Source of the DNA: Rhizobium halophilum
GTDB lineage: Bacteria; Pseudomonadota; Alphaproteobacteria; Rhizobiales; Rhizobiaceae
Length of the DNA: 64,000 nt
Direction of reading: 5' to 3'
Assembly: GCF_021648825.1 (NCBI RefSeq)
Contig: NZ_JAKJHS010000008.1
Coordinates: 62,001-126,000 of the forward strand
Shown: piece by piece, positions 61,313-63,384 of the stretch
Numbering within the stretch: position 1 is the first letter of the stretch
Layout: the number at the start of each line of letters is the position of its first letter
Translations under genes and position numbers: made by a program
The notes under the pieces: model-generated
What the model was told of the DNA's origin: nothing
The model's input: the letters and a program-made list of their open reading frames with translations, nothing else
The model's database searches: none

Positions 61313-61337
61313 AACGTGCCAGGTCGCCACAGGTTCA
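61313..61337 (-). promoter_or_regulatory. EcfG/RpoE2-like promoter of the Pmp3 gene, one mismatch
   Basis: The minus strand reads TGAAC, 16 bases, CGTT. It is back to back with the plus-strand box at 61355. Confidence 0.5.
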
Positions 61338-61354
61338 ACGGCGAGGAGGCTGCA

Positions 61355-61379
61355 GGAACGTAATACAGAAGGGAACGTT
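61355..61379 (+). promoter_or_regulatory. EcfG/RpoE2-type promoter of the GFA-HD-SDR operon
   Basis: Exact GGAAC, 16 bases, CGTT, ending 22 bases before the GFA gene. Confidence 0.75.
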
Positions 61380-61401
61380 GTAGCCGCAACAGGAGGCAAT
61401 C

Positions 61402-61779
61402 ATGATCATTCGCTCTGGCGGCTGCCTCTGCGGAAACGTCAAATATTCTGTCAAAGGCCCGCCGCTCAGGGTAGGACTATGCCATTGCGCCGTTTGCCGG
61501 AAGGAAAGCGGCTCTGCCTTCGTCACCTTTGCGGTGTGGCCTGCCCACTCGTTCGAAACCGCGGGAGAGATAGCAATCTTCGGCGGACGTGGGTTTTGTC
61601 GAAGCTGTGGCTCGCGCCTTTTCAATCCGCAGGACGGTGAAGTGGAAGTACGCCTCGGGTCTCTTGATATGGCTCCGACTGACCTTGCTCCCACCTACGA
61701 GATCTGGGTGAAGCGCCGGGAAACATGGTTACATCCCCTCGCAGGGCTTGAGCAGTTCGAGGAGGATCGCGGTGAGTGA
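61402..61779 (+). CDS. GFA-family zinc protein
   Basis: A 125-residue protein of the glutathione-dependent formaldehyde-activating (GFA/CENP-V) fold. Zinc ligands: GGCLCGNVKY, LCHCAVCRK and GFCRSCGSRLF. Members handle glutathione adducts or are of unknown role. It starts the EcfG operon; the next gene overlaps it. Confidence 0.85.
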   Translation: MIIRSGGCLCGNVKYSVKGPPLRVGLCHCAVCRKESGSAFVTFAVWPAHSFETAGEIAIFGGRGFCRSCGSRLFNPQDGEVEVRLGSLDMAPTDLAPTYEIWVKRRETWLHPLAGLEQFEEDRGE

Positions 61780-62179
61780 CCTTCTGGAAAAAGCGCAGAA
61801 TATCGCCACTCAGGCACACCAAGGCCAGCTTAAAAAGACGGGCGGCCTCGTCCTTGAACATGTCGCACGCGTCGCGGCGAGCGTATCGGGCAGAGAAAAG
61901 AAAACTGTCGCTTGGCTTCACGACGTGGTGGAGAAGGCTCCAGAGTGGACGCTGGCACGCTTGCGTAAGGAGGGCTTCCCGGAAGCGATTTTGCTTGCTG
62001 TCGACGCTCTAACCAAAAAACCAGGGGAGAGCCACGAAGACCTGGTTCGTCGAGCTGCCGAGAACGATCTTGCTCGATCCGTGAAACGTGCAGATCTGAC
62101 TGACAATCTCGTCGAGGCAGAGCGCACGGGGCATGATCCGGAGAAGTATCGGGCAGGCCTTCGCATCCTTGATTGCTGA
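61772..62179 (+). CDS. HD-domain protein, RelA/SpoT hydrolase-like
   Basis: A 135-residue single-domain HD protein. Ligand motifs are LEHVARVA, WLHDVVEKAP and KRADLTDNL, in the order of the small alarmone hydrolase (Mesh1-like) fold. It could hydrolyse ppGpp or another nucleotide; not shown. The GTG start at 61772 is supported by GGAGGA six bases upstream and overlaps the GFA stop. Confidence 0.78.
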   Translation: MSDLLEKAQNIATQAHQGQLKKTGGLVLEHVARVAASVSGREKKTVAWLHDVVEKAPEWTLARLRKEGFPEAILLAVDALTKKPGESHEDLVRRAAENDLARSVKRADLTDNLVEAERTGHDPEKYRAGLRILDC

Positions 62180-62250
62180 AGGCCGGAACTTTGAGCCCAA
62201 TGGCTCGTTCGGCGCCCTCGAGACGAGGTGCCGCAACAGGAGGCAGAGGC

Positions 62251-63035
62251 ATGGAACTTCAGGCGCGTGTGGCACTGGTCACAGGAGGCGGATCCGGCAT
62301 CGGCAAAGCGACTGCCGTAACCTTTGCTCAACAAGGAGCCAAGGTCGGCGTTCTGGGCCGTACTCGAAGCGAATTGGATCGAACGGTGAAAGAGATTGAA
62401 GCTCAGGGTGGGATCGCCGTTGCTCTTGAAGCCGATGTGTCAGACGAGGAGGCGTTGCGGGCGGCGGTGGCACAGCTATTGAATGCCTACGGGCGGCTGG
62501 ACATTGTTGTCGCCAACGCCGGGATCAACGGCGTCTGGGCACCGATCGACAGTCTCACGCCGGATGAATGGGACAAGACAATCCGGATCAATCTGCGCGG
62601 AACCTACCTCACGCTTCACTTGACCGTCCCGCACATGGAGGCCCAGGGCGGCGGCTCGATCATCATCGTTTCTTCCATTAACGGAAACCGCACGTTCACC
62701 TCACCCGGTGCCACACCGCCTATTCGGCGACCAAGGCAGCACAGGTTGCGATTGTACAGCAACTAGCCGTCGAACTCGGTCAGCACAAGATCCGCATCAA
62801 CGCTGTCTGCCCAGGCAAGATCGACACCGAGATAGACGACAATACTAAACTACGTGAAGAAGATAAGACCGCGGTCCCTGTTGACTGGCCTGAAGGAGAC
62901 ATTCCACTGACAGAGGGGATACCCGGAGCGGCGATGGACGTTGCAGATGTTCTTTTGTTCCTTGCATCACATCGCGCCCGGCACGTAACCGGCGTCCCGA
63001 TCTTTGTAGATGGGGCCCAAAGCCTGCTGAGGTAG
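62251..63035 (+). pseudogene. SDR family oxidoreductase, frame-broken
   Basis: A 261-codon SDR when one base is restored. The first part has LVTGGGSGIGKATAV, VANAGINGVWAPIDSL and IIIVSSING; it breaks after TSPGA, near 62709-62715. The following frame supplies TAYSATKAAQVAI (YxxxK), INAVCPGKIDTEI and HVTGVPIFVDGAQSLLR, ending at TAG 63033-63035. Family proteins read GA(H)TAYSATK, so one C seems lost from a GCCCAC run. Third gene of the stress operon, with GGAGG before the ATG. Confidence 0.82.
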
Positions 63036-63066
63036 GCACGTCATCAATGATGCAAGCCTAAGAATT

Positions 63067-63096
63067 TGAAAAGCCCTTCCCAGAGAGGAAGGGCTT
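63067..63096 (-). terminator. Hairpin terminator between convergent genes
   Basis: Perfect 10-bp stem AAGCCCTTCC / GGAAGGGCTT, loop CAGAGA. Read on the minus strand it ends in TTTT, serving the small gene at 63112; it also lies after the SDR gene. Confidence 0.85.
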
Positions 63097-63111
63097 CCAT
63101 ACGACGAGAGG

Positions 63112-63297
63112 TCAGCGATCCTGCTGATATCCCTGGTTGGTCGTATTGATCTTGCTGTTACCCTGCTGCCCCTGCTTGTCGAAGTTCTTTTGACTAGGGT
63201 CCGTGGTCCGGCCCTCGGACGCACTAGCCGAGGCCGGCTCGCCGGGACCCTTGTGGCTGCGGTTTTCTTCGGGGATGGGCGGGAGCTTGCTGTTCAT
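63112..63297 (-). CDS. Small hydrophilic stress-type protein
   Basis: A 61-residue protein beginning MNSKLPPIPEENRSHKGPG, very rich in Gln, Asn, Ser and Gly with no hydrophobic core, so disordered. Similar tiny hydrophilic proteins are general-stress induced in rhizobia; the family name is unknown to me. GGAGG lies 5 bases before the ATG, and an exact -35 EcfG box lies upstream. Confidence 0.78.
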   Translation of the reverse strand: MNSKLPPIPEENRSHKGPGEPASASASEGRTTDPSQKNFDKQGQQGNSKINTTNQGYQQDR

Positions 63298-63327
63298 CTC
63301 GGCCTCCTTGCTTGGTTTCACTAGGCT

Positions 63328-63352
63328 AACCAATCAAGGCCGTTGATGTTCC
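63328..63352 (-). promoter_or_regulatory. EcfG/RpoE2-type promoter of the small hydrophilic protein
   Basis: The minus strand reads GGAAC, 16 bases, GGTT. It ends 30 bases before the ATG at 63297. Confidence 0.65.
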
Positions 63353-63359
63353 GGCATTC

Positions 63360-63384
63360 GGAACCCAGCTTCGCGTGCAGCGTT
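63360..63384 (+). promoter_or_regulatory. EcfG/RpoE2-type promoter of the GH13 gene
   Basis: Exact GGAAC, 16 bases, CGTT, ending 28 bases before the ATG at 63413. The two divergent boxes are 7 bases apart. Confidence 0.75.

Follow-up and report, generated by a model that had tools for sequence, protein, structure and literature searches.

Predicted EcfG-type general stress promoters in a 64-kb region of the Rhizobium halophilum genome

We analysed a 64,000-nucleotide region of the Rhizobium halophilum genome, referred to throughout as the window, which carries sites resembling promoters of the EcfG/RpoE2 type. The motif was read as GGAAC-N16-(C/G/T)GTT, and strict sites were scored on both strands. 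Gene starts came from a simple caller that uses codon usage and a ribosome-site score; it missed the GFA, DUF2735 and first SDR genes, and the starts of these three and of the GH13 gene were entered by hand for the distance counts. From left to right, the genes and predicted promoters are:

1..618, minus strand: 5′ part of an SDR oxidoreductase whose gene runs off the window (first SDR; assigned from its translation and relatives)
651..675, minus strand: variant site, TGAAC-N16-CGTT, with the GTG start (618) of the first SDR 32 nt downstream
715..1401, minus strand: exported-looking protein of 228 aa, with no Pfam family at E 0.01
1424..1448, minus strand: predicted EcfG-type promoter, GGAAC-N16-GGTT, 22 nt upstream of the gene for the exported protein
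4024..4557, minus strand: SodC, Cu/Zn superoxide dismutase (Pfam PF00080, 134 bits)
4643..4667, minus strand: predicted EcfG-type promoter, GGAAC-N16-TGTT, 85 nt before the SodC ATG at 4557 (124 nt from the caller's start)
34126..34150, plus strand: predicted EcfG-type promoter, GGAAC-N16-CGTT, 118 nt upstream of DUF2735
34269..34445, plus strand: DUF2735 protein of 58 aa (PF10931, 40.8 bits)
61120..61278, minus strand: Pmp3 membrane peptide of 52 aa (PF01679, 80.6 bits)
61313..61337, minus strand: predicted variant promoter, TGAAC-N16-CGTT, 34 nt before Pmp3
61355..61379, plus strand: predicted EcfG-type promoter, GGAAC-N16-CGTT, 22 nt before the GFA gene
61402..61779, plus strand: GFA-domain protein (PF04828, 84.6 bits)
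61772..62179, plus strand: small HD protein; the stop of GFA overlaps its called start (PF13328, 21.3 bits, under the cut-off of 27.2)
62185..62209, plus strand: predicted EcfG-type promoter absent from the initial annotation, GGAAC-N16-CGTT, 41 nt before the second SDR
62251..62766, plus strand: reading frame of a second SDR, the rest of the protein lying in another frame to about 63035
63112..63297, minus strand: hydrophilic protein of 61 aa that matches neither a Pfam nor an NCBIfam family at E 0.01
63328..63352, minus strand: predicted EcfG-type promoter, GGAAC-N16-GGTT, 30 nt upstream of the 61-aa gene
63360..63384, plus strand: predicted EcfG-type promoter, GGAAC-N16-CGTT, 28 nt before the GH13 gene and back to back with the site at 63328
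63413..64000, plus strand: GH13 enzyme of 561 aa (PF00128), its gene cut by the window's end and complete in L015

Exact matches with the 16-base spacer number eight in the window, against 1.60 expected under a second-order Markov model (sd 1.29, maximum 5 in 60 simulations), and seven of the eight lie upstream of a gene at a distance of at most 124 nt. The spacing preference is sharp: among matches outside called genes, defined as those less than half inside a called gene, N16 gave seven, N17 two and each other spacing from 8 to 26 between none and two. When one mismatch to GGAAC-N16-CGTT was allowed, ten matches fell in 150-nt promoter zones against 1.99 expected, and nine other spacings treated in the same way gave 0–3. 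The initial annotation had listed eight sites, of which six are exact on the strand claimed; those at 651 and 61313 are TGAAC variants, and the plus-strand site listed at 34127-34151 is exact but lies one base earlier, at 34126-34150. It placed the sites mostly 20–35 bases before the start codon, and this is accurate for six of the eight (651, 32; 1424, 22; 61313, 34; 61355, 22; 63328, 30; 63360, 28), the remaining two being the SodC and DUF2735 sites at 85 and 118 nt. Its chance figure of one match per 65 kb holds for exact matches but not for variants: the window contains 25 one-mismatch matches, so a lone variant carries no weight. The broader statement that the placement is not due to chance is borne out for the set by the excess over 1.60, the N16 peak, the upstream placement and the recurrence at orthologues described below. 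The picture of a regulon spread over the window does not fit, as the sites form two end clusters and one site at 34 kb.

Two exact sites were absent from the earlier list, 62185-62209 on the plus strand and 2915-2939 on the minus strand. The latter was rejected as a promoter: it lies within coding sequence with the next start 489 nt away, and is probably a chance match. Searches for other elements gave no known RNA family in the window at the Rfam gathering score, and between 61 and 64 kb a sigma-70 scan returned 1 hit against 0.9 in shuffles and a terminator scan 3 against 2.4.

Recurrence was scored as the presence of a strict site in the 250 nt ahead of each gene's relatives (300 nt for GFA), with the own-genome row left out of each count; the first SDR sample comprised 18 loci, paralogues included, and for DUF2735, the exported protein and GH13 all matches were used. 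As a background, a strict site stood upstream of 15 of 184 non-target genes in the same loci, a rate that may be too high, these genes being drawn from loci with stress genes; a second background gave 38 of 2,302 250-base segments of named loci. Other spacings upstream of targets were rare, with 3 of 30 at N10 and 1 of 30 at N19 in the named genomes with the 61-aa gene, and 0–2 per spacing from 11 to 22 in the other sample. Target conservation together with predicted sites is seen for the 61-aa protein, Pmp3, SodC, DUF2735 and the exported protein, and even for the best-supported genes the strict site is missing in a third to over half of the relatives. Support for the predicted GH13 and second SDR sites comes from one congener, G047.

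At the left end of the window, a strict site lies within 250 nt upstream of SodC in 12 of 29 relatives (29 of the 45 other matches listed). SodC is an RpoE2 target in Sinorhizobium meliloti; a literature search for sodC under RpoE2 with the GGAAC motif found no paper. Both relatives of the exported protein carry a strict site within 250 nt. The initial annotation had counted two exported proteins besides SodC as members; the one at 715-1401 has its own site, and no second one with its own site was listed. For the first SDR, a strict site was found in 3 of 18 related loci, not clearly above the background of 15 of 184, and the predicted site at 651, weakly supported, ranks as the weakest of the set.

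At 34 kb, the strict DUF2735 site recurs in three of six relatives, the congener included, and is distal there (172–214 nt). The segment 34151-34268 (plus strand) forms a long leader between the EcfG site and the DUF2735 gene. Because the relatives L142, L143 and L145 share the distal site, this long 5′ leader may be conserved; it gave no Rfam match.

In the right-end cluster, a GGAAC site precedes Pmp3 in 13 of 29 relatives and TGAAC forms occur in four others (29 of 31 other genomes), the TGAAC-CGTT background being 1 of 184 non-target genes. Of 29 relatives (among those in 80 other genomes), 4 have the GFA site within 300 nt, 3 of them among the 12 nearest, a count not clearly above 15 of 184. 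The site is absent from the one congener found and stands as a weakly supported prediction. We considered it as an old operon feature and rejected this, as the one congener lacks the GFA site but keeps the SDR site. The initial annotation had entered a GFA-HD-SDR operon as a single member; the exact site before GFA is present, and the additional site at 62185 before the SDR had been overlooked. That site is kept in the congener at L077:8549 with identical boxes. Transcription probably enters the predicted GFA-HD-SDR unit at two points, and the congener keeps only the one before the SDR.

The second SDR is one uninterrupted frame in the congener (L077:8617-9396). In the window its frame change falls shortly before 62766 and reflects either a real mutation or an assembly error. 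The small HD protein at 61772-62179 (plus strand) has a weak, below-cut-off likeness to the RelA/SpoT family, and it is speculation that it could tie the operon to the alarmone (p)ppGpp.

The strict site upstream of the 61-aa protein is found in 19 of 30 named genomes among the matches listed and in 6 of 10 family genomes including the congener, two samples that overlap, with at least one identical site common to both (L070, L155). Its nearest named relative among the matches listed is from Rhizobium deserti, at 75% identity. Relatives with EcfG-type sites upstream occur in Rhizobium, Bradyrhizobium, Methylobacterium and Pseudoroseomonas, and relatives in these four genera have an NTTNQGYQQDR-like C-terminal end. 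Matches to the protein came from 11 of 121 genomes of the family and 4 of 385 of the class (own genome counted in both), so that either its distribution is patchy or its sequence is too diverged for the search. In the available part of the matching literature, we found no mention of hydrophilin. The GH13 gene encodes an enzyme that scores over the cut-off of NCBIfam NF008183 (634.4 against 535) and below that of TIGR02403 (702.9 against 799.05). The 61-aa/GH13 site pair is kept in congener G047 with all boxes identical; this congener is the only one of five GH13 relatives with a site, a count not clearly above 15 of 184.

The regulators expected of such a system are encoded elsewhere in the genome, on contig C1:

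C1:685198-686199, minus strand: HWE kinase, at the same locus as PhyR, NepR and EcfG
C1:686478-687272, minus strand: PhyR (NF006623, 390 bits; cut-off 240)
C1:687489-687590, plus strand: NepR match (PF18557, 60.2 bits)
C1:687617-688180, plus strand: EcfG-type sigma (NF009169, 355.5 against a cut-off of 321)
C1:722700-723191, minus strand: second ECF sigma of 163 aa, preceded by strict sites at C1:723249 and 723313

The genes phyR, nepR and ecfG thus lie together with an HWE histidine kinase gene at C1:685-688 kb. The phyR/nepR-ecfG intergenic region has a strict site some 45 nt upstream of phyR; read towards nepR-ecfG, the same element has AGTT at the −10 position and is off consensus, so self-activation of ecfG is only a candidate. 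The closest specific models of the second ECF sigma are the same as those of EcfG, with scores below their curated cut-offs (best 155.1 against 270), and we judge this sigma to be EcfG-like.

We selected C1:680-780 kb because the site list already showed a cluster there. It contains 27 matches (22 N16 and 5 N17), corresponding to 24 distinct elements with three counted on both strands; none lies mostly inside a called gene, compared with 4.43 matches in simulations (sd 2.30, maximum 11 of 60). Three of the 27 are beside phyR-nepR-ecfG (685-690 kb), and 722-780 kb contains the remaining 24. A called start on the same strand is at most 250 nt away for 15 of the 27 but not for the other 12, the caller being one that misses genes. 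Genes in this stretch include two for Ku, one for LigD, two for DUF892 proteins, and others for DJ-1, BON and isochorismatase proteins and an HWE kinase.

Four 27-bp elements in this stretch start with GGAAC on both strands (C1:687315, 738255, 760133 and 762634). The last three qualify as strict EcfG sites in either direction, with a shift of 2 bases, and are possible two-way promoters; the element at 687315 is strict towards phyR and has the AGTT noted above in the other direction. Five two-way elements were counted in the stretch, four of them with EcfG spacing. As a genome-wide feature, palindromic two-way sites were rejected, with 21 elements against 31 for a reversed control and hence no enrichment, and a literature search on bidirectional promoters of sigma EcfG found no paper.

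A genome-wide motif scan, which the initial annotation had proposed as a check, gave a small excess of 113 GGAAC-N16/17-CGTT matches. Because the reversed pattern gave 95, the bare motif is a poor predictor genome-wide. We classified 75 CGTT sites outside the stretch, drawn from 100 listed of the 113 with six on C19, C20, C22 and C29 left out: 25 stand at most 250 nt ahead of a called gene, 14 are in other non-coding positions and 36 are coding. At least seven of the 25 downstream genes encode proteins of less than 60 aa, and one of the 25 sites precedes a sigma-32 gene at 194 nt (NF005693, 484.9 bits against 315), in agreement with the naming of rpoH2, a sigma-32 gene, as an EcfG1 target of Rhizobium etli in the available text of PMC3892343.

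The first base of the −10 box differs between targets. When distinct sites up to 150 nt away are counted together with their TGAAC forms, relatives of the 61-aa protein have 8 C, 8 G and 8 T (16 of 24 non-C), Pmp3 relatives 16 C and 1 G, SodC relatives 5 C, 4 G and 2 T, and C1:680-780 kb 18 C, 6 T and 3 G. A Fisher test on the −10 bases gave 9.4e-5, with related sequences counted as if they were independent. For the 61-aa gene, the T forms come mostly from Bradyrhizobium, so lineage explains part of the difference. A regulon split by this base, in which CGTT genes such as Pmp3 would respond to either EcfG, genes that often have GGTT or TGTT, such as that for the 61-aa protein, would respond mainly to one, and a conserved, uncharacterised stress effector would be encoded by the 61-aa gene, is a tentative and on balance improbable proposal from these base counts; the available part of a Sphingopyxis study reports −10 flexibility and suggests that it may bear on activation by EcfG1 and/or EcfG2 (PMC7083833). 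A related alternative to reading by the NepR-bound EcfG is that the non-CGTT sites at 1424, 4643 and 63328 are read mainly by the second EcfG-like sigma (C1:722700-723191). Two EcfG-type sigmas in one genome and the contrast between the 61-aa and Pmp3 boxes speak for this assignment, but the SodC bases are mixed, the 61-aa T forms are mostly from Bradyrhizobium, with lineage as part of the cause, the Fisher value counts kin as independent and the second sigma scores under the curated cut-offs, and we regard it as unlikely.

Two further explanations would remove EcfG from the window altogether, and both are very improbable. The matches could be chance hits picked by eye in a list enlarged with variants, as the 113 against 95 genome-wide, the 25 one-mismatch matches and the exact site at 2915 inside coding sequence would allow; for the whole set, this is contradicted by the N16-specific peak behind eight exact sites against 1.6 expected, by the placement of seven of them within 124 nt of a gene and by recurrence at orthologues, and chance may account for the site at 651 and in part for that at 61355. 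Equally slight are the prospects that another ECF sigma with an AAC-type −35 box reads the sites: an almost invariant AAC is common to ECF −35 boxes according to the available part of PMC7083833, but motif and spacing are those published for EcfG1 (PMC3892343, seen in part), a strict site precedes phyR, the densest cluster lies 35–80 kb from phyR-nepR-ecfG on the same contig, and some downstream genes (Ku/LigD, sigma-32) are of kinds published, in the text available, as EcfG-dependent.

We conclude that most of the sites are predicted promoters of the alphaproteobacterial general stress response, with a probability of roughly 0.93. The EcfG/RpoE2 reading of the initial annotation is supported because the regulators are encoded in the genome, spacing and placement upstream of genes are non-random, and several sites recur at orthologues, including in other genera. 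By analogy with published work on relatives, from which we infer both how the signal is passed on and that each gene depends on EcfG, stress would lead a histidine kinase to phosphorylate PhyR, PhyR would bind NepR and free EcfG, and EcfG-RNA polymerase would start transcription at GGAAC-N16/17-(C/G/T)GTT and turn on protective genes. These would be the genes for SodC, Pmp3, DUF2735, the exported protein, the 61-aa protein and GH13, the GFA-HD unit, and the SDR through its own promoter. The analysis pins down the likely, predicted stress-response targets of the region and adds one overlooked promoter. With EcfG-type sites in several genera yet no Pfam or NCBIfam match, the 61-aa protein is a sensible knockout candidate.

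The closest comparison is with EcfG1/EcfG2 of Rhizobium etli, where the available parts of the published accounts describe the same GGAAC-N16-CGTT motif for EcfG1 (PMC3892343), phyR, nepR and ecfG together, a second EcfG elsewhere and a sigma-32 target (PMC3892343, PMC3188799); here the targets are predicted, and the likeness of the sigma-32 gene to rpoH2 is at family level. The EcfG regulons of Sphingopyxis granuli and Sphingomonas melonis, organisms that we infer to lie outside the family sampled here, resemble the present set, as far as the available text of the two reports goes, in a conserved −35 and variable −10 box, in several sites about 30 nt before the start, and in Ku among the targets of both, with LigD in S. 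granuli, both Ku and LigD being found here too (PMC7083833, PMC6599016). The part of the S. melonis report at hand also gives a target table with PRC-barrel, glycosidase and many hypothetical proteins and a motif, GGAAC-N17-20-GTT, that covers the spacing here and permits longer ones (PMC6599016). The RpoE2 response of Sinorhizobium meliloti involves the same regulator group, RpoE2 and RpoE5 being named EcfG-like in the available text of PMC3188799. Set beside these systems, the window is a new instance of a known one, sound but ordinary; less ordinary are the 61-aa protein with predicted sites in several genera, the differing −10 bases and the overlapping two-way sites.
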